In this document: positions 26,427-35,508 of the stretch, piece by piece
Layout of the letters: each line of letters starts with the position of its first letter
Numbering within the stretch: the first letter of the stretch is position 1
Source of the DNA: a virus
Virus record (IMG/VR): IMGVR_UViG_3300009011_000034
Location: 1-35,709 of that record
DNA length: 35,709 bases
Direction: 5' to 3' (one strand)
Position numbers and translations under genes: made by a program
Notes under the pieces: model-generated
The model's database searches: none
Told to the model about the DNA's origin: nothing
Seen by the model: the letters and a program-made list of their open reading frames with translations, nothing else

Positions 26427-27127
26427 AGCTGCACAAAGTGCTGGCCATCAACGGCGCGCCCTTCGCCCTGGTGAAAGAGGACGTTCGGCTGGACATCACC
26501 AGCCCGGGTCGGGCGACCTTCACCATCCAATCCGCGGTGCCGGCGAAAGGTTTGGTAACGCTGGATATTGGCTACAACGAGGGCACGCTACAGCGGCACT
26601 TCATTGGCTACGTCGAGCGTTGCACCGCTGCCAATGGTGTCGAGCAGGTGTTGTTCTGTCGCGAGCTGGCCGCCGTGTTGGCGAATCCGCTACCGCTGAA
26701 CCTGCGCCACGTCGATTTGCGCGCTGTGCTGGCCGTCGTCAGTGAGCAGACCTGCTTGCGGTTTCGCGTGCCCGATCGGCCCTACGCCAGTGCCAAATCG
26801 CCGTTCTTCTACAACCTGGCCGCCGGTTACCAGGCGATGGACAGTCTGGCCCGGGTGTTCAGCATCCCCGACTTTACCTGGCAGCAGCAGGGCAATGGTG
26901 AAGTGTTTGTAGGTAGTTGGGCCGACAGTTTTTTCGGCGCCCGTGCGCCGCTTCAAATCCCCACGGAGCTGTTCGACGGCTACCAGGGCAACCAAAGCGC
27001 GATGGTTGCGGCCCTTCCCGGGTTGCGACCAGGTGCGACGATCAACAACGGCGAGCGCATCACCAGTGTGGCCCTTGCCAATGACCAGATGGCCATCCGA
27101 TGGAAGACGCAATCCGCCGCAGCGTAG
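26423..27127 (+). CDS. Baseplate hub protein (short gpD-like)
   Basis: A 234-aa protein with a GTG start overlapping the preceding stop. The beta-rich N-terminus (VLAINGAPFALVKEDVRLDITSPGRATFTIQ) and SLARVFSIPDFTWQQQGNGEVFVGSW resemble parts of gpD/gp44-like hub proteins, on which the spike sits. P2 gpD is about 390 aa, so this is short. The previous gene may supply the missing half. Confidence 0.7.
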   Translation: MKLHKVLAINGAPFALVKEDVRLDITSPGRATFTIQSAVPAKGLVTLDIGYNEGTLQRHFIGYVERCTAANGVEQVLFCRELAAVLANPLPLNLRHVDLRAVLAVVSEQTCLRFRVPDRPYASAKSPFFYNLAAGYQAMDSLARVFSIPDFTWQQQGNGEVFVGSWADSFFGARAPLQIPTELFDGYQGNQSAMVAALPGLRPGATINNGERITSVALANDQMAIRWKTQSAAA

Positions 27128-28077
27128 AGCGGCAATTTCCCGAACTCACCGGTGGTTACCACCTGCCACGCTTTGCTCGGGTTGTCGCCGTGGCCGATGC
27201 GCCGGCCGGCGCCGGTATTTGTGACGACTTCCGTCCGCGCTATGCGGTCGACATCGAGGTCTTGGGTCCAGACGGTGAGCCCGATCCGCAACTGCTCCAG
27301 CTCGCCGGCGTGCCGTTGCCACTGCCCACCGGTGGCGAGGAAATGGGTATGTATGCCTTTCCGGAGGAGGGCACCCAAGTCGTGGTGTGCTTCGCCTACG
27401 GGCTGCCGAACAAACCCTACATCCAGACAATCCTGCCCCACGGGCTGAGTATGCCCAAAGTGCCAAAGGGTGATCAGGTGTGGCAGCACAGCGAAGCCGC
27501 CCAGCAGCGGGTAGACGCCGACGGCAACTGGCTGCGCCAGACTGATGGCAAGATCCAGGATAAGGCGATCGAGCGCGAGGTGGAGGCCCTTGAGAACCGC
27601 GAGCAGTTCCAGAACCACACGCAGACGATCGACGATCATTCGACCGAGTCGGTGGGAGGAGTCAAGACGATCGAGGCCCTGGGCGCACTCAAGCTGCTAT
27701 CGGGTGGATCTGCGAGCCTGGCGGCCGTGGATGATCTGCACCAGGCCACCGGCCGTGATCTGAACCTGGTGGTGGGGCAGAAACACAATGCCACGGTGGG
27801 TGGCGACATGCAGGAGAAGATCCAGGGTCTACGCAAGAGCGTTGCCGGTATGAGTCAGCACCTGCAAGCGCCAAAAAACTGGATTGGGTCCGAAGGGGTC
27901 AACCTATTCCAGGTCGTCTGCGATACGCTCGACCTTTTACAGCAGATGAACACCCAACTGGCCGCTCATACTCACCTACCAGGACCAACGCCAAGCCCGA
28001 CCGATGCAGCAGCATTCACGACCAACGCTGAGCAAACGTTGGCTCTTTCCATAAAGATAAGGCCGATCACCCTTTAG
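27100..28077 (+). CDS. V: Baseplate spike protein (gpV-like)
   Basis: A 325-aa membrane-piercing spike. It begins MEDAIRRSVERQFPELTGGYHLPRFARVVAVADA with an OB-fold domain (residues about 20-110, ending VVVCFAYGLPNKPYIQTILPHG). A beta-helix-like region (IEREVEALENREQFQNHTQTIDDHS) and an AAHTHLPGPTPSP tail follow. It overlaps the hub gene by 28 bases and is the last gene of the structural operon. Accessory genes on the opposite strand start 19 bases further on. Confidence 0.85.
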   Translation: MEDAIRRSVERQFPELTGGYHLPRFARVVAVADAPAGAGICDDFRPRYAVDIEVLGPDGEPDPQLLQLAGVPLPLPTGGEEMGMYAFPEEGTQVVVCFAYGLPNKPYIQTILPHGLSMPKVPKGDQVWQHSEAAQQRVDADGNWLRQTDGKIQDKAIEREVEALENREQFQNHTQTIDDHSTESVGGVKTIEALGALKLLSGGSASLAAVDDLHQATGRDLNLVVGQKHNATVGGDMQEKIQGLRKSVAGMSQHLQAPKNWIGSEGVNLFQVVCDTLDLLQQMNTQLAAHTHLPGPTPSPTDAAAFTTNAEQTLALSIKIRPITL

Positions 28078-28092
28078 TAAGTGTTGACAAGA

Positions 28093-28111
28093 AACGTTAA
28101 GACTTAATGTT
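28093..28111. terminator. Hairpin between convergent spike and rloB-like genes
   Basis: AACGTTAAG-A-CTTAATGTT, a 9-bp inverted repeat with one G-T type mismatch. It overlaps the rloB stop codon (28097-28099) and lies 15 bases after the spike stop. A modest hairpin without a clear U-run; possibly a bidirectional terminator at the edge of the accessory region. Confidence 0.4.
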
Positions 28112-28753
28112 CTGAAGATAAGCTACCAGTTGGTGGACTGTTGTTAATGGGTTTTTAGATCCGTTCTTCTCAGATTCTGCAAGTAGTTGGCTGCTGAACG
28201 CTTTCGCAGTTTCTAGCTGTCCAAATAAATGACTGAACGATCCATTAAGACCTTTCGAGTAATCGGGCCAATACCGTTCAAGCTCCTGGAGGGTACGTGC
28301 TCCACAACTTTTATTGCCATTTGACTCTAGTGGGGAAGATGTATATGTGAAGTGCAGAATGAACCATAACTCAAAGCACGGGGTGGAGGTGATTGCCGTA
28401 AACACTTCAGCAGGCTTTAGAGAATTTAATACGGTAACCGCTTCGTCAAAGTTTGTATGCTTGTCACGATCAAATACACAATAAACTTTATCGAATGGAT
28501 CGTTGAGTCTTGCCGATTGCCTAAATAACTCCTCACCATGCCGAACGACACTCACTGGGTCCGAACCGCACTCGCCACTGATCATAATATTGGCGGTGTC
28601 AATTTCGTAGTGGTCTTTGAGTTCGTTGAAGTAGTTCGGTTCTGTTTTTGAACCTTCACACACAATTAGTACTTTGTCATATCTCTTTCGTGTTGGTTTG
28701 TTGCGCTCAAGTTTTTTTGCTTTTCGCTTATGGAATAAATTGTCTGTGCCCAT
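28097..28753 (-). CDS. rloB: RloB-family Toprim protein (AbiLii-like), defence effector
   Basis: A 218-aa RloB domain protein. A basic N-terminus precedes a Toprim-like core: E33 in VLIVCEGSKTEPNYF, and D95 and D97 in YCVFDRDKH. ATSTPCFELWFILHF-type aromatic residues follow. Toprim folds cut or transfer DNA or RNA using metals. The gene lies 3 bases after the RloA ATPase in the same direction, which is the AbiL/RloAB arrangement. By analogy with the related PARIS pair, the ATPase may hold the nuclease until a phage trigger releases it. AT-richer than the structural genes, consistent with transfer. Confidence 0.87.
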   Translation of the reverse strand: MGTDNLFHKRKAKKLERNKPTRKRYDKVLIVCEGSKTEPNYFNELKDHYEIDTANIMISGECGSDPVSVVRHGEELFRQSARLNDPFDKVYCVFDRDKHTNFDEAVTVLNSLKPAEVFTAITSTPCFELWFILHFTYTSSPLESNGNKSCGARTLQELERYWPDYSKGLNGSFSHLFGQLETAKAFSSQLLAESEKNGSKNPLTTVHQLVAYLQNIKS

Positions 28754-28756
28754 AAA

Positions 28757-30031
28757 TCAGCCCGCCACCGTGCTCATTGATCTAACGTAAGGCAGGGCAC
28801 CATATCTGCCGGAAAGATAGGCATCTTCTAAACTTTCTCTACCTTTTCTTGGGCTGAAATCAGTGAGTGGGTAAATACTAGTTGCCTGATCTTTATTTTT
28901 TTCACAGAACCAGATTTGATCTCTGCGAAATACGTCTTGATTGAGAATAGAGGTTTCGTGAGTTGTGAAAATCAATTGTGCATTTTTTGGGTTTGTTACT
29001 GGGTTATGAAATAGATCCACTAAAAATCTAACGAGTTTTGGGTGGAGGTTGTCATGCAGTTCGTCAATAAATAGAACTCTGCCTGTTTCAAGTACGTTCA
29101 GCCAAGGTCCAGCGTAGGAGAAAAGTTTTTGTGTGCCGTCAGATTCATCGTCAAATTCAAATGCGACAGATTGGTCCTGAACGCCTTTATGAATGGTTTT
29201 AATATCGTAAATGATATTGTCTTTCATATTTTCCAAGATGTCTTTTTTAACATCTTCTGGTAAGGAGTCTGGCAAGTGTTTAGATGAGAATTTTTCTGAT
29301 TGAACCTCAACATCTTTGATATCCAAATCTGCGGCTCTAAGGAAGTCTAAGATCTTAGATTTTTGCTCGGATGTTTCACATTGTGAGGCGGTATAGCTAG
29401 GAGTCCAACCTACTACACTACCAAAGCGCAGGGTGAACTTGAACCAATTAAATACAGGCTTTAACTGTTTGCTGTTGAGTTGTGTTGCGATGGATAGAAA
29501 TAAGGCATTATTTAAAGTGGATTCTTGCCATACCTGTTTCTGTCCAGCCAGTGAGTTACCAAACGCCCAGTCATATGTGTTTGACTCAACATTCCATTCG
29601 CGGCTAAACCAATGTTGCGCTCTACCATTCGGAAATGCGATTAACCACTCGGTCATGATCTGATCTTTGGTAGCAGAAAAACCATACTGATACCGAACTT
29701 GTTTCGCAGAAAATACCACTTCAAACTCGGTGGGCTCTTTCTCGGTGCGAGCATCCAAGATGAACGGTTTTACTGGGATTTCGTTTCCTGGTTGCGGGCT
29801 AGAGGAACCGACCACAATCTCCTTCATTACTCTTAGCGCGTTGAGTAAATTGGATTTGCCTGCTGCGTTTGCACCATAGATTGCGGCAGAGCGCAGCAGG
29901 TCTCCAGTGGCTGGTGTCTCTGGGTCAAAAGAATTCGATACCGTTAATTCTCCGCCTTTAGCTTTCACCAAGCTGAAGGTTTGTTCGTCCCGAACAGATC
30001 GCCAGTTCCTTACCGTGAATTGAATTAACAT
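28757..30031 (-). CDS. rloA: RloA-type AAA ATPase (AbiLi-like), defence sensor
   Basis: 424 aa from the ATG at 30031, which has a strong AAGGAG site; the longer frame to 30088 lacks this. ABC/SMC-like AAA_15 ATPase: Walker A GANAAGKS (53-60), SDGTQKLFSYAG as signature-like segment, Walker B VLFIDELHDNLHPKL (about 320-335) and switch histidine in FTTHETSIL. It pairs with RloB at 28097. Preceded by a 9-bp inverted repeat (30059-30081) in the leader. AT-rich composition differs from the core prophage. Confidence 0.88.
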   Translation of the reverse strand: MLIQFTVRNWRSVRDEQTFSLVKAKGGELTVSNSFDPETPATGDLLRSAAIYGANAAGKSNLLNALRVMKEIVVGSSSPQPGNEIPVKPFILDARTEKEPTEFEVVFSAKQVRYQYGFSATKDQIMTEWLIAFPNGRAQHWFSREWNVESNTYDWAFGNSLAGQKQVWQESTLNNALFLSIATQLNSKQLKPVFNWFKFTLRFGSVVGWTPSYTASQCETSEQKSKILDFLRAADLDIKDVEVQSEKFSSKHLPDSLPEDVKKDILENMKDNIIYDIKTIHKGVQDQSVAFEFDDESDGTQKLFSYAGPWLNVLETGRVLFIDELHDNLHPKLVRFLVDLFHNPVTNPKNAQLIFTTHETSILNQDVFRRDQIWFCEKNKDQATSIYPLTDFSPRKGRESLEDAYLSGRYGALPYVRSMSTVAG

Positions 30032-30058
30032 CTTTAGTCGCTCTCCTTTTGGATCCGC

Positions 30059-30081
30059 TTTTTGACAAAAAATGTCAAAAA
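30059..30081. promoter_or_regulatory. Dyad in the rloA leader, candidate operator or promoter
   Basis: TTTTTGACA-AAAAA-TGTCAAAAA is a perfect 9-bp inverted repeat just upstream of the rloA ribosome-binding site. Each arm contains TTGACA/TGTCAA. It could bind a regulator of the defence pair. The -10 and -35 elements cannot be fixed. Confidence 0.5.
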
Positions 30082-30251
30082 GTATCATTAAAATGACTCT
30101 AGCATGGCCTTGGAGCTCAGGGGGAGTGGCATTTTGCTATTTGTAGCCGGCTATCGACGATTTACCTCCGCTTCTCTCCACTAACTCGGGCTGTGGCGCT
30201 GATATTGGGGGCTCAACCTTCAATCAGTGATCCTTCTTCGAACCTAAATTT

Positions 30252-30548
30252 TTACTCAAGGCGGCACCACCAAGATTGCGAGTAGGCGCACCCCTCGATG
30301 AACTCAATGCCACTGAGGACAAAGCCAGTGACCGCCATTCCTGCCAAAGTTGCGTCCAGCAGCTTCGGCAACGGATCCGGATCAAGCGGCATGCCCACCT
30401 CGACGCGGGCTACATTGGCGCTCCGGCCGAGCTCAATGCTGTTTTCTGAGTTCACCATCACATTGCCCCTTATCGCCTGATAGTGTCGGCGTTCCTGAGG
30501 AGTCAGGGCGACACCTTGGCGTCGCATTGGGGTAACAAGCATATGCAT
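30252..30548 (-). CDS. Hypothetical protein, second gene of LexA-box operon
   Basis: A 98-aa soluble protein (MHMLVTPMRRQGVALTPQERRHYQAIRGNVMVNSENSIELG) ending GFVLSGIEFIEGCAYSQSWWCRLE. A GAGG site stands seven bases before the ATG. Family function unknown to me, though the composition is that of a small conserved Pseudomonas protein. It lies 15 bases downstream of the broken small gene at 30563-30813, and likely shares its LexA-box promoter. The 220 bases between this gene and rloA hold only the rloA leader dyad. Confidence 0.65.
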   Translation of the reverse strand: MHMLVTPMRRQGVALTPQERRHYQAIRGNVMVNSENSIELGRSANVARVEVGMPLDPDPLPKLLDATLAGMAVTGFVLSGIEFIEGCAYSQSWWCRLE

Positions 30549-30562
30549 GAAATTGCCTCTAC

Positions 30563-30813
30563 CTAATCACCACTTTGGTGGTCAAGCAGTGCTTCCACTG
30601 CATAGGCTAGAGCGCCGTCTGCCTGCTCCAGGAGATCGCTGAGATCATCGTGATCAATGATCTGGGCCCGGTGCAGCGCGTGAGCCTGATTCAGTAGCGC
30701 TTTATGGTGAGTCCCGGGGTGATCTAGCAAAGCGACCTCGTCCCGCAGCAGGGTTCCCACTCAGCGATCGCGCTTGTCTTGCCAACGGGCTTTTCAAAGT
30801 GCTCCTTTTTCAT
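30563..30813 (-). pseudogene. Small gene with apparent frameshift behind a LexA box
   Basis: An ATG at 30813, with GAGGTGG upstream, opens MKKEHFEKPVGKTSAIAEWEP and then stops at 30724 after a further eight residues. The other frame (30563-30760) continues plausibly as LLRDEVALLDHPGTHHKALLNQAHALH... to 30563, but has only a GTG start directly after a stop and no ribosome-binding site. One base lost near 30750 would join them into an ~88-aa helical protein. Alternatively the 65-aa frame is translated by coupling. Function unknown. Confidence 0.5.
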
Positions 30814-30842
30814 CACTGCCACCTCATTAATACGGCCGATTA

Positions 30843-30858
30843 CTGTATGCATGAACAG
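30843..30858. promoter_or_regulatory. LexA box (SOS operator)
   Basis: CTGT-ATGCATGA-ACAG, a perfect CTGT-N8-ACAG core in TACTGTATGCATGAACAGTG, within 30 bases upstream of the ATG at 30813 on the minus strand. This matches the gammaproteobacterial LexA consensus. It implies that the small operon 30813-30252 is SOS-induced. Confidence 0.82.
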
Positions 30859-31436
30859 TGTATCTGCGAAGGGACGGCAGGCTACAGCAAGCCGATGAAA
30901 AGCCAGCCAGATCGTGGGTCGACGGAAAGCGGCAGGGAAAGAAAAAAAGGTCGGAAAAAGCACTTATCCCCCTCCCGCCGGCGGGCTTTACATCCTTTTT
31001 CTGTGCAAATCCGGCTGTAATGCAAACGAACCTCCGGCCCAGGCGGGCCATGGGCGTGCACGAGGGGGCGGCCATTTCATTTCATGTAAGGTTTTGAAAG
31101 AAAGTGCAGTGCTGTTGCACAGGAACTCAGAGGCGGTTACGGAGGGACGAATGCTGGTGTCCTAGGTTTTGCTGGACGAAAACTTTTAAAACAAAGTTTT
31201 TGGAGTGTTTTGATAATACCGCACGATCTTTTTTTGCCTTGTGTAGCCTGTGTATGGGATGAGCAGGCTGAATTCCTGCTGGCTAAGGCACGACCAAATT
31301 TTGGCTGGTATTGTTCTAGCGCTAAGCCGACCGACCTCATTTCCCCCAAAGAAGACATTGTGTAGAAATTGCTAACGGAAAAAAGAGGCTTACAAAATTT
31401 GGTTCTGAACTTAATCACTCGGAGTGATATTGGAAG
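30859..31436. other. About 580 bases without a convincing gene
   Basis: The stretch has open frames on both strands (for example 30827-31075 minus and 31137-31418 minus), but none has a good start, ribosome-binding site or recognisable product. The GC-rich part to about 31100 overlaps the presumed promoter of the LexA-box operon. The AT-rich part contains a weak hairpin, AAAACTTT-N6-AAAGTTTT (31179-31200). I see no transposase remnant. Confidence 0.6.
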
Positions 31437-31461
31437 TACAAGGCGGAAATTCCGCCTTGTA
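31437..31461. terminator. Strong hairpin after the SEFIR-NACHT gene
   Basis: TACAAGGCGGAA-A-TTCCGCCTTGTA is a perfect 12-bp inverted repeat around one base, 12 bases past the stop of the immune gene (minus strand). There is no U-run after it. It is probably the transcript end or a processing hairpin. Confidence 0.6.
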
Positions 31462-31472
31462 TATTATTGATG

Positions 31473-34361
31473 TTAGGAGTTCAAATACTCCACCAAAGAC
31501 TTCATTTTTCCATCTATGAAATTATCATTTAGAAATCTATGCACGCTGTCTTGATAATGCTCAGAAACCACATAGAACTTGTCAACATTTTTTACGACTT
31601 GTAGGTCAATAACTCCCATTCTTATTAGGGTGTCAAAATTTCTGCGGCTAAGTTTGTCGATTTTTCCAGAAAACTGCATGTACATCATTTTTTGATCTAT
31701 GAAGGATACTCCTTTGAAAAAGCTCCTTAAGAATTTTTTTAGTTCTGATTCACATAGCGCTTTGTTACTTTTGGCAGAGCTTTCTACGAGAGCTACTGTA
31801 TCTGTAAGATCGCCAAGTTTGCAGGTGCTGTCAAACATGCTTGGGTCGAAGCTTTCGGAAGTGTAAGTTCCTCCAGTGTTTGAGAACTCGCTATAAAAGA
31901 ATTTTGCTCCGGAAAACTTGGAGGTGATAAAGTTTTCATAGTTATAGAATCCGCTATCCCAAACTTGAAGATTTGAAAAATCTAAAGAAGGGTAGTCTCC
32001 ATATAAATACAAACCTTCAATTTTTCCTTCGATTTCCAAATCTGCAGGTGCCTGATAAAGGTCCCTGATTCGCCGGGATAAGTCCCCTCGCTGAAATCTC
32101 CCACAACGAGAGTGAATGCTTAATAGCGAACCTACAGCTTTCTTTATTGACTCTGTTTCCCGAGGCTCTATCCCATCTCGTAAAAGCAGTCCTTTGGCTT
32201 TGCCTAACATGTCTTTAACTGAACTGTGTAGTATTTCTACATCCTCCTGAGAGAAATAAGAAATTACGTCAGAGATTGATTGCTGGCTATCATCTTTGGT
32301 GGTTGCCAGGCATTGAATCATGTCTTTACTTAATGAGCGTCTTAAAATACCTGAAATAACGAATAGAGATTTGAAGTACTCATTCAAAAATTGATAGCGG
32401 AACCGCAGTAGTCCACCATCCTGAACCAAGAGGGGGTTTATAACGACTTTTGAGTATAACTTGTCTGCGCTGTCATCATAGTAGATGTTTAGCTTCTCGC
32501 GAAGCTTTTCGCAGGGTATAGACTCCCCATGTTCGACTGCAAGCTCAGAAAATAAGTCTATAAATTCTTTGGTTTCGAGTTCGATATCATGTCGCGTTTT
32601 CTCTCTTCGAAGAACTGAGAATATAATCAAGTCGGTAAGCGTTGAGTTGCACGCGTAATCTTTATCATCTGAAGATATCTCAAATGATATTTTACCTTGC
32701 TCTTCAAGTTGCTCTTCGAAAATCGTTGAAACCATGTCGACAAAAAATGGCACAATGCGATTGTGATGATCGCCGAATTGCTCTAGCTGTTCTATGTACT
32801 TGTCGAAGAGACCTATAAGCTCCTCGGTCTTGCTATATTGCTTAAATCTTTTTCGAATGTATTTTGCGCGTGATGCTTCATCAAAGCCAAGCAGTTCATG
32901 GGATTGAATGCCCACATCATCAAGTGCAATATCTTCTGTGAAAGCCATGTTTCGAGACGTTAGTATTACTTGGCTTCTACCCATTTGCTGATGAGATTCA
33001 TGAATGGATATCAAGAATTCCGTAAGATAGAACCGCTCTTGCAGTATTGAAGCAAACTCGTCCAAGCCATCAATAATGATTATAAGCCTTCCGCATAGTA
33101 GGCAAAGTTCAAATTGATTTCTATCATAAACTTCCTCGAGGTTGTTTATTTGTGCGTGAAGATCATATAGGTCGTATAGGCTTCGGATTTCAATGTTTGC
33201 AATGAAGTCGCTTGAAAAATTGTTTCGTAGAGACTCTGCTTTTATCAGAACTACAGAGCTTTCTCCTAAGAATTTTTTGTTCAGGGCAATTGCTAGTTCA
33301 TGGCATAGGGTGCTTTTACCCATGCCGCCTGTTGCAACAACTAGCTGGCCTGAAGAGGCTGTTTCGTTAACTAATCTGTCAGTTAGAAATCCAATAGCTG
33401 AGTCGCTTTTATTTCCATTGTCATCTGGGATTCCCAGATGTTTCAGCGCTTGATCAGTATAGAATTTATTCGCTCTTATTGGGGGCGGGGCTCTCAGGCG
33501 CTCATCAATGCAGTACTCCCAAATATATTCGGAGTAGGTTAGTTCGGCAATATTGAAGTTAAATCCGTTGCTTTCTACAGTCTTTTGGACCAAAGACTCA
33601 TCGCCTTTGGCTGGGCGTAAAAGCGTCAGATTCTGAATGCAGATTTTCTTGTCTTTTATAAGCTGGCAAAATCTATTGATGGTGTGTGATATGGTTATGT
33701 TTGGATATAGAATTAGAAAGTGTGATTTAAATGGGGTGCTAACTTCCCATAATTCAAATTTAACTCTGTTGTTATGCGAGAAGTCTGTTCCCTCAGCTGT
33801 ATCTATTAATGCCTGTCTCTTGGAGTATTTAAGTCGTAGAATATCTTCTACTCGTGTAAAGTTGTAGTGTGCACTGCCGCTCTCGACGCTTTTTTTCTTG
33901 TCTGGTCGTGTTACCTTTGTTTTTCTTGTTAATGCGTTTATCAAAAAGCTGAGGCTTTTTTGATAAAGGTCGTCATCATAGAAGTCAACTCTGAATTTTC
34001 CCTTTAAATAGAATGGTGTGCTGTATTTTTCGCGGGAAACAACCATTATATTACTGGGTGCACCACCCTCGGACTCTTCCCAGTGGCGAATTGTTGATAA
34101 GTATGTCTCGATTCCGACGCCACCAGTTCTGGATTCTGCTTTGCGTTTGTAGAGCTCGGTGCATACCACTATTATAATATCAGAGTCCTGAATTGCTCTT
34201 TCCATAAAAAGATTTTTATCAGAAAAATTATCTAAATCAAACTGATCAAAAGTTACATGAAATTCTTGGAACTCGTCTAGATCGGTTGCTAGACCTTGCA
34301 CCCATTTTTGGTGTTCTTCGTTGTCCCAACTATAACTGATGAATATTTTCGTAGGCTGCAT
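31473..34361 (-). CDS. SEFIR/TIR-NACHT protein, bacterial NLR-like antiphage protein
   Basis: 962 aa from the ATG at 34361, chosen for the strong AGAAGGAG site. Residues 4-130 are a SEFIR/TIR domain: KIFISYSWDN, FDQFDL, SDIIIVVCTELYKRKAES, GGVGIET with a candidate catalytic E85. A less clear middle domain follows (about 180-300). A NACHT STAND ATPase comes next: Walker A TGGMGKSTL (about 342-350) and Walker B LIIIIDGLDEF (about 425-435). The C-terminal sensor contains a pentapeptide-like stretch (LDFSNLQVWDSGF...SKFSGAKFFYSEFSN, about 790-830) and a possible winged helix. Such proteins are predicted to sense phage and cut NAD+ or oligomerise to kill the cell. Low GC indicates recent acquisition. 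Confidence 0.85.
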   Translation of the reverse strand: MQPTKIFISYSWDNEEHQKWVQGLATDLDEFQEFHVTFDQFDLDNFSDKNLFMERAIQDSDIIIVVCTELYKRKAESRTGGVGIETYLSTIRHWEESEGGAPSNIMVVSREKYSTPFYLKGKFRVDFYDDDLYQKSLSFLINALTRKTKVTRPDKKKSVESGSAHYNFTRVEDILRLKYSKRQALIDTAEGTDFSHNNRVKFELWEVSTPFKSHFLILYPNITISHTINRFCQLIKDKKICIQNLTLLRPAKGDESLVQKTVESNGFNFNIAELTYSEYIWEYCIDERLRAPPPIRANKFYTDQALKHLGIPDDNGNKSDSAIGFLTDRLVNETASSGQLVVATGGMGKSTLCHELAIALNKKFLGESSVVLIKAESLRNNFSSDFIANIEIRSLYDLYDLHAQINNLEEVYDRNQFELCLLCGRLIIIIDGLDEFASILQERFYLTEFLISIHESHQQMGRSQVILTSRNMAFTEDIALDDVGIQSHELLGFDEASRAKYIRKRFKQYSKTEELIGLFDKYIEQLEQFGDHHNRIVPFFVDMVSTIFEEQLEEQGKISFEISSDDKDYACNSTLTDLIIFSVLRREKTRHDIELETKEFIDLFSELAVEHGESIPCEKLREKLNIYYDDSADKLYSKVVINPLLVQDGGLLRFRYQFLNEYFKSLFVISGILRRSLSKDMIQCLATTKDDSQQSISDVISYFSQEDVEILHSSVKDMLGKAKGLLLRDGIEPRETESIKKAVGSLLSIHSRCGRFQRGDLSRRIRDLYQAPADLEIEGKIEGLYLYGDYPSLDFSNLQVWDSGFYNYENFITSKFSGAKFFYSEFSNTGGTYTSESFDPSMFDSTCKLGDLTDTVALVESSAKSNKALCESELKKFLRSFFKGVSFIDQKMMYMQFSGKIDKLSRRNFDTLIRMGVIDLQVVKNVDKFYVVSEHYQDSVHRFLNDNFIDGKMKSLVEYLNS

Positions 34362-34530
34362 CTTGCTCCTTCTGCGCTCAGGCGTCCTTCGCGTCTCCAC
34401 TTTGCGAGGAGACCGTTATGGGTAGCATAGTGACATGAATGTCAATCGTGATGCCATATTAGTATCACTGTCTTTTTTGGGCGTTTGACAATGGTTATGA
34501 GTACGCCTTTTAGGCGGTGGTTGCCGATTA

Positions 34531-34600
34531 GTGAGCCGAGCCATCAGCGGCTAGGGCTGTAGGCAAACCTAGTAAAAAACTAACCCTCGACCTGGCTCAC
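34531..34600. other. Structured intergenic element upstream of the immune gene
   Basis: GTGAGCCGAG (34531-34540) pairs with CTCG...GGCTCAC (34586-34600), and CTAGG/CCTAG lies inside, so about 70 bases can fold into a branched hairpin. It lies in a 280-base gap between the divergent starts-stops of the immune gene and the small gene at 34641. It could be a small RNA or a remnant of a recombination site. Confidence 0.35.
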
Positions 34601-34640
34601 AAAGCATTGCACAAGGTTTGTAGTTTGGAGCGCCGATCCA

Positions 34641-34856
34641 TCAATCCTTTTCCTTCGCTCTCAAGCGCGCCAAGCCCTGCTTAATAAAGCCTGCATTTTC
34701 GCCAATTCGATCCAGAGCAGTACGGGTGTTATCGCCAGTATCAGCAAAGCCTTGTCGTTCCGCCAAGAGTGTCAGTTCCATGATCGCTGCTTCCAGGGCT
34801 ATCTGATTTTCGTAGATTTTTTCGAGAACTATAGGAAGGGAATATTCGTTTGCCAT
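34641..34856 (-). CDS. Small helical hypothetical protein
   Basis: A 71-aa protein (MANEYSLPIVLEKIYENQIALEAAIMELTLLAERQG), with GGAG upstream of the ATG at 34856. Entirely helical and without membrane segments. It is the last gene before attR, transcribed leftward from the side of the GGTAAT array, which may act as its promoter region. Function unknown. Confidence 0.62.
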   Translation of the reverse strand: MANEYSLPIVLEKIYENQIALEAAIMELTLLAERQGFADTGDNTRTALDRIGENAGFIKQGLARLRAKEKD

Positions 34857-34933
34857 GGCTTCGACTCCGTTCGGAAAGTCGCAAGCATAGCAGTGAATCA
34901 GAGGGTCAATTTCAGGTCGAGGGGCGGGGAAAG

Positions 34934-35207
34934 GGTAATTTTGGTAAGTCGGTGCGAGAAAGGGCTTGTAGCCCTTGTAAACCGTGGCTTTGACGTATTA
35001 CCTCAGAGGGTAATATTGGGTAAGGCTAAAGGTAATGTTTTTTCAAGTCTATGATTTTAAAGGGTTTTGTAGTGATCTGGAATTACTTAGCTCAAAGGTA
35101 ATTTTCTAACCTATTGCTTACCTTATTATTACCTTTATAGGAACTGTTCATCTATTTGATTTTATTGATTTTTTAGGTGTTTTTATAAATATATTACCAA
35201 TATTACC
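34934..35207. repeat. Array of eleven GGTAA(T/G) hexamers (iteron-like)
   Basis: On the plus strand: GGTAAT at 34934, 35009, 35031, 35097 and GGTAAG at 34943, 35019. On the minus strand: ATTACC at 34997, 35128, 35193, 35202 and CTTACC at 35117. Most fit a longer A(A/G)(A/G)GGTAAT(A/T)TT consensus. Copies on the left mainly point right and those on the right point left. The spacer is AT-rich. The array lies between the small gene at 34641 and attR. It may be an origin, a regulator binding region or excision-complex sites. Confidence 0.6.
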
Positions 35208-35342
35208 TTTTTCCCAGGGGTCAACCTGAAAACCGGAAATTGCAGAGAGAAAGGTATCAGACCGGCGCACCCACACAAATCCTGTAACTCTCACCTGCTT
35301 CGCCCTGACACTACCTTGATACCCCTGGAGGTCTTGAAATAG

Positions 35343-35389
35343 TGGCGCGGGTGGAGGGGATTGAACCCTCGTTATCAGCTTGGGAAGCT
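35343..35389 (-). pseudogene. 3' fragment of a tRNA-Gly(CCC)
   Basis: On the minus strand the sequence has an anticodon loop TTCCCAA (anticodon CCC, 35382-35384), a T-stem GAGGG/CCCTC around loop TTCAATC, acceptor 3' strand CACCCGC, discriminator G and CCA. The 5' half (acceptor 5' strand, D-arm and most of the anticodon 5' stem) is missing. Fragments of this kind are typical attachment-site remnants of tRNA-Gly-targeting elements. Confidence 0.72.
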
Positions 35390-35508
35390 TCCGATGATAC
35401 CTGAAAGCCTGACTGCGATAGTGGTCGTGATTGGAGCTGAAAACGGATGCTTAAATTTTGCTAGAGCGGCCGAACGGAGGGGAGGCGCAGGGATGGGGTA
35501 TAGGTTGG

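Follow-up and report, generated by a model that had tools for sequence, protein, structure and literature searches.

The gene at positions 31473-34361 (minus strand) of the window, the whole 35,709-nucleotide stretch of viral DNA analysed here (IMG/VR record IMGVR_UViG_3300009011_000034), is likely to encode a prophage-borne, single-gene, NLR-like abortive-infection receptor acting through NAD+ loss, a reading to which we give a probability of about 0.7. The predicted product resembles an animal or plant immune receptor, having a head, a NACHT switch and a sensor in one gene, and as a bacterial SEFIR-NLR it unites two components of signalling in animal immunity.

NACHT proteins follow a tripartite logic of C-terminal sensing, central oligomerisation and an N-terminal effector (PMC12169576), and by analogy with the families concerned an antiphage role, ATP-driven oligomerisation and NADase chemistry would be expected of this protein; the antiphage role is also strongly suggested by context and precedent. 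We infer an abortive infection that would run from a phage trigger through assembly to NAD+ loss. The C-terminal part, made up of a helical region, a short solenoid and a winged-helix end, would sense a product of a competing phage, and this would free the NACHT switch for ATP binding and assembly. The assembly would gather the SEFIR domains, which would hydrolyse NAD+ through residue E85, and the loss of NAD+ would lead to growth stop or cell death before the invader is released. Such sacrifice of the host cell would protect the kin of the lysogen and hence the prophage.

The SEFIR-NACHT gene and its orthologues

The gene is confirmed as real by its reading frame, its ribosome-binding site and purifying selection. 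It had originally been predicted as a single open frame over this same interval, the coordinates of which proved exact and to which the strand can now be added. The frame runs from an ATG at 34361 to a stop at 31473-31475 (962 codons plus stop), and each of the remaining five frames of the interval contains 43 to 78 stops. A ribosome-binding site rated as good (AAGGAG, 34362..34377, minus strand) lies upstream of the ATG.

Full-length orthologues were identified in Pseudomonas bananamidigenes (L002, 85%) and at three further loci, L003 (80%), L008 (76%) and L009 (68%). As amino-acid identity remains at 68-85% despite saturated change at synonymous sites, strong purifying selection is indicated; at the DNA level, the coding sequences of the window and L002 are 75% identical. 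The fastest-evolving part is the helical region at residues 671-785, with 48% identity to L009, and its divergence makes it a candidate sensing surface. More distant or incomplete copies comprise L031 (a P2-like carrier, with about 33% full-length identity), L052 (a partial copy with 36% identity at the end of a contig) and L054 (3992-6823, viral contig), in which the SEFIR-NACHT gene is broken across several frames and so seems to represent natural loss. The gene is rare, its carriers making up three of the 399 Pseudomonas species genomes sampled.

A conserved upstream element, TGGCATC (34417..34462, minus strand), is positioned 89-95 nt 5' of the ATG in four of the five orthologues (window, L002, L003 and L008), the flanks of which are otherwise unrelated. 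It lies about 20 nt from a TATGCT-like box, a misfit with sigma-70 spacing. The element is probably a promoter or operator, and it seems to be a regulatory element that moves together with the gene. Just past the stop is a perfect 12-bp inverted repeat (31436..31462, minus strand), a probable terminator. An Rfam search of the window gave zero matches.

Domain architecture of the predicted protein

The N-terminal SEFIR/TIR domain (residues 1-150; 33912..34361, minus strand) was identified by Pfam, PDB search and alignment. The Pfam match covers residues 1-133, with SEFIR at E 5.5e-14 and TIR_2 at E 1.4e-11, both above the curated cut-off, and a sequence search of the PDB with the window protein returned only 5y8e/5y8f, which are solved bacterial SEFIR domains (E about 1e-14). 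The putative catalytic E85 is found within a GGVGIE motif (80-85); it is invariant in all 10 aligned SEFIR domains, and in the alignment to the solved SEFIR domain it falls on that domain's Glu. The Pfam matches and the invariant glutamate bear out the SEFIR/TIR head originally proposed. In IL-17 receptors, SEFIR is the cytoplasmic signalling domain. SEFIR domains have been counted among NAD+-cleaving effectors (PMC12774641), and by analogy the head is probably NAD+-destroying.

It is unlikely that the head turns NAD+ into a signal or serves as a scaffold while a separate protein kills. Such behaviour has parallels in the TIR enzymes of Thoeris, which produce a signal from NAD+ rather than depletion only (PMC9122126), and in TIR domains able to act without their glutamate (PMC13142454), but E85 is invariant here and no effector gene is linked to the SEFIR-NACHT gene in all orthologues. 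The neighbours in the four other full-length copies are unrelated, which fits a self-sufficient gene.

The NACHT NTPase core (residues 341-509; 32835..33341, minus strand) was assigned from Pfam, Foldseek and its motifs. NACHT was matched at residues 346-508 (E 6.8e-9, over the cut-off), and both Walker motifs are intact (A, ATGGMGKST, 343-351; B, LIIIIDGLDEF, 426-436), in agreement with the original prediction of a NACHT ATPase. A sensor-like TSRN occurs at residues 468-471 of the core. The core is preceded by a middle domain (residues 165-290; 33492..33869, minus strand) with a predicted order of a-bbb-a-b-a-b-a. The folds of this domain and of the sensor had not been recognised from the sequence at the outset, and the HMM search gave the same outcome, since Pfam has no family matching the middle domain (about 166-290) or covering the C-terminal third. 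A PD-(D/E)XK nuclease is a possible reading of the middle domain on the basis of a similar predicted a-bbb-a-b order, but no conserved (D/E)xK motif was present, and neither Pfam nor PDB gave a match.

Residues 165-962 were modelled using AlphaFold2 from an eleven-sequence alignment (mean pLDDT 80.7), a full-length model from five sequences (mean pLDDT 57) being too poor for use. In the model, the middle domain is succeeded by the NACHT core and by helical domains that include a winged helix; further along come a helical region, a strand-turn solenoid and a long helix that runs into a winged-helix-like end. The predicted fold is NLR-like. The best Foldseek matches include NOD2 (5irm, E 5.8e-11), NLRP3, NLRP9, Avs4 (8dgf, E 3.4e-7) and the AVAST5 filament (9nc9, E 1.7e-4). 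TM-scores were low, probably because the domain arrangement differs.

From the model and conservation, residues 510-777 (32031..32834, minus strand) comprise the helical domains and NACHT-associated winged helix, followed by the fast-evolving helical region. The winged-helix motif is FRYQFLNEYFKSL at 654-666 (RFRYQFLNEYFKSL at 653-666). A Tyr of this motif is invariant in the family alignment; in animal NLRs, the position it occupies holds a His that contacts ADP.

Residues 779-827 (31881..32027, minus strand) form, from the model and the residue pattern, a short, F-rich, pentapeptide-like beta solenoid of about three coils. It is followed by about 130 conserved residues, assigned by the model and profile comparison to a long helix and a winged-helix-like C-terminal domain (residues 828-962; 31476..31880, minus strand). 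The pentapeptide-like stretch of the original prediction hence exists, but it is short and does not form the end of the protein. A long pentapeptide-repeat sensor was ruled out by the three or so modelled coils and by the lack of a Pfam Pentapeptide match in the C-terminus of the window protein, which is accordingly placed outside the pentapeptide-repeat family, having no long quadrilateral solenoid. The sole such match was a sub-threshold one to Pentapeptide_4 (Pfam, E 0.0017) in the distant relative L031.

Prophage setting and cargo hotspot

The window is a P2-like Pseudomonas prophage with an integrase at 283-1422 (Pfam), its nearest named relative being Pseudomonas phage UFJF_PfPro of the Peduoviridae. 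The gene is thus prophage-borne, as had been proposed, and it sits in a cargo hotspot. The conserved left border of this hotspot is the last late (baseplate) gene (27100..28077, plus strand). Towards the other side, a tRNA-Gly(CCC) gene seems to be represented by its 3' half at 35345-35395 on the minus strand, ARAGORN detecting no complete tRNA near these positions, and this half-gene probably marks the right-hand attachment site of the prophage. Between the two are found an AbiL-like pair, the SEFIR-NACHT gene and genes for small phage proteins. The AbiL-like pair (28097..30088, minus strand) consists of an AAA_21 ATPase (28757-30088) and RloB (28097-28753), with matches to AbiLi (E 8e-104) and RloB (E 1e-37) in PADLOC/Pfam. 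From these matches it is a probable second defence system in the same hotspot, and protection of the lysogen therefore need not stem from the SEFIR-NACHT gene alone. The GC content of the SEFIR-NACHT gene is 39.5% (hotspot defence genes about 39-44%) compared to about 62% in the neighbouring late genes, indicating acquired cargo.

The hotspot was surveyed in 80 IMG/VR loci (L125-L204) with the same baseplate gene by collecting downstream ORFs of at least 150 aa. Together with the window and L003, this gave 216 cargo ORFs in 163 clusters. PADLOC matches among the cargo were AriA (PARIS), AbiLi, RmrA, PtuA, NsnA/B and PD-T4-2, while Pfam identified GmrSD and AlbA_2; non-defence cargo was also found (acyltransferases, a K+ transporter and umuC-like genes), and most of the cargo is unannotated. 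Judged by its gene content, the region behind the last baseplate gene (28078-35345) is a defence-rich cargo hotspot of P2-like Pseudomonas prophages. This agrees with the P2/P4 hotspots of E. coli (PMC9122126) and makes the late-operon end of Pseudomonas P2-like prophages rich ground for defence-gene searches.

The carriers also bear on a quite unlikely alternative, in which SEFIR-NACHT would be a self-regulating or superinfection-exclusion device directed at related P2-like phages or at induction of its own prophage. P2-like carriers hold the gene at two genome positions, which would suit such a device: L003, another P2-like prophage, has it at the same hotspot border beside the last tail gene, and L031 has it between a terminase-side gene and replication gene A. 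Its orientation in L003 is the opposite of that in the window, being co-directional with the late genes in the former and opposed to them in the latter, which also counts towards this alternative. However, the setting of L009 is chromosomal, none of the neighbours inspected there being recognisable as a phage gene, and L008 lies near a resolvase, so that the gene is not bound to the biology of one phage, and defence genes of such hotspots commonly target unrelated phages (PMC9122126).

Effector heads of the module and known systems

Among viral contigs, 69 SEFIR loci were identified, and besides that of the window only four have, or formerly had, the NACHT module. It is very improbable that the window gene is a bSEFIR-type system with an incidental NACHT and with sensing as in bSEFIR, since the sole defence model matched in PADLOC, bSEFIR (E 3.8e-43, residues 1-247), was not matched by residues 165-962 alone and is confined to the SEFIR part, and the phage SEFIR proteins found otherwise are almost all bSEFIR-like, of about 480 aa and without the NACHT module.

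Four types of head were found on the NACHT-sensor module: SEFIR, DUF4145/HEPN-like, nucleosidase and AlbA_2/Schlafen. The DUF4145 (HEPN clan) head occurs on an Aliarcobacter plasmid, and a PNP/MTAN-type nucleosidase is fused to the module in a viral contig (L032 4795-7998, IMGVR_UViG_3300005804_000069). AlbA_2/Schlafen heads were detected over the cut-off in L019, L024 and L038, below it in L035, and by sequence likeness in L016, L033 and L043. On a Pantoea agglomerans plasmid (NZ_CP143523.1, L120 3793-6836), the module gene is headless and has a nucleosidase gene directly upstream, the product of which is homologous to the L032 head (29%, E 9e-18); the two genes are possibly an undescribed two-gene defence system. 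Distant effector-less relatives of the module were present in L049 (1438-3783) and L050 (E 4e-23 and 5e-18), that of L050 being split in frame, and no adjacent effector gene was seen in either. The named phage collection contained no match to the module.

The C-terminal domain is homologous between the SEFIR and AlbA_2 forms (hhalign 97%, E 3e-11) and between the SEFIR and HEPN-like forms (E 1e-13). The middle domain is homologous across the SEFIR, HEPN-like and nucleosidase forms (E 6e-9 and 2e-6). A middle domain common to the AlbA_2 forms was also considered, but the profile comparison was not significant (probability 1.5%, E 0.034), and homology of this domain is therefore claimed only for the other three forms. 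In the module tree, the SEFIR forms make up one clade (100/99) and the AlbA_2 forms another (100/100), other placements being weaker and long-branched; the order of effector swaps is unsettled because of the long branches in the effector tree.

Our tentative proposal, held at slightly under even odds, is that the middle-NACHT-sensor module represents a hitherto undescribed family of bacterial NLRs. A single sensing switch would then serve at least four lethal heads of differing chemistry (SEFIR NADase, HEPN-like RNase, nucleosidase and AlbA_2/Schlafen), in some cases encoded upstream and supplied in trans, and would be traded among P2-like prophages, plasmids and chromosomes. As the same module occurs with different heads, and in one case the head is encoded by a separate gene, the family makes it possible to ask cleanly whether bacterial NLRs can have their sensing parted from their killing.

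The bNACHT proteins, a group associated with Kibby in 2023, are reportedly bacterial and NLR-related. The window protein shares with them the effector-NACHT-sensor plan and a Pfam NACHT match (PMC12169576), having an N-terminal effector domain and a central NACHT with Walker A/B, but its effector is SEFIR and its middle and C-terminal domains are without a family. Bacterial NACHT proteins with TIR/SIR2 heads do occur (PMC10952713). As in bSEFIR, there is an N-terminal SEFIR with a GGVGxE motif and a conserved Glu in a single gene, of a kind often found in prophages; phage bSEFIR proteins are NTPase-free and about 480 aa in length, whereas the window protein has 962 aa with a NACHT and a sensor. 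Avs1-5 (AVAST) share the NLR-like fold, as indicated by the Foldseek matches to Avs4 and AVAST5, but no long TPR sensor is predicted in the window protein. In PADLOC at E values up to 1 it matched none of the Avs models and only bSEFIR, which separates it from Avs and from every NLR-type system that PADLOC models. Fungal NLRs also carry SEFIR-like and PNP_UDP heads on NLR switches (PMC9815663); these are eukaryotic with other sensor repeats, and the parallel makes no claim of homology beyond the domains.

A further comparison is with the TIR-NLR that Rousset et al. 2022 (PMC9122126) described from P4-like satellites, which likewise has a TIR-superfamily head, a central STAND NTPase and a C-terminal sensor in a P2/P4-type hotspot. 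Compared by description only, it differs in its TIR head and TPR sensor, the window protein having an uncharacterised module, a head that Pfam assigns to SEFIR, with TIR_2 as a further match, and no detected TPR family. No literature combining SEFIR, NACHT and phage was found in a search outside which most subscription papers and the main bNACHT paper lay. The suggestion that the combination may be new thus holds with regard to this literature, but not in the sense of a single occurrence, given the four full-length copies, the distant L031 and the partial L052. The bacterial NLR-like receptor is as a kind already known, and the TIR-NLR (TIR-STAND-TPR) of P4-like satellites, validated against phages (PMC9122126), is its validated analogue. 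As far as the literature searched shows, what is new is the fusion of SEFIR to NACHT, together with the uncharacterised module and the swapping of its heads.
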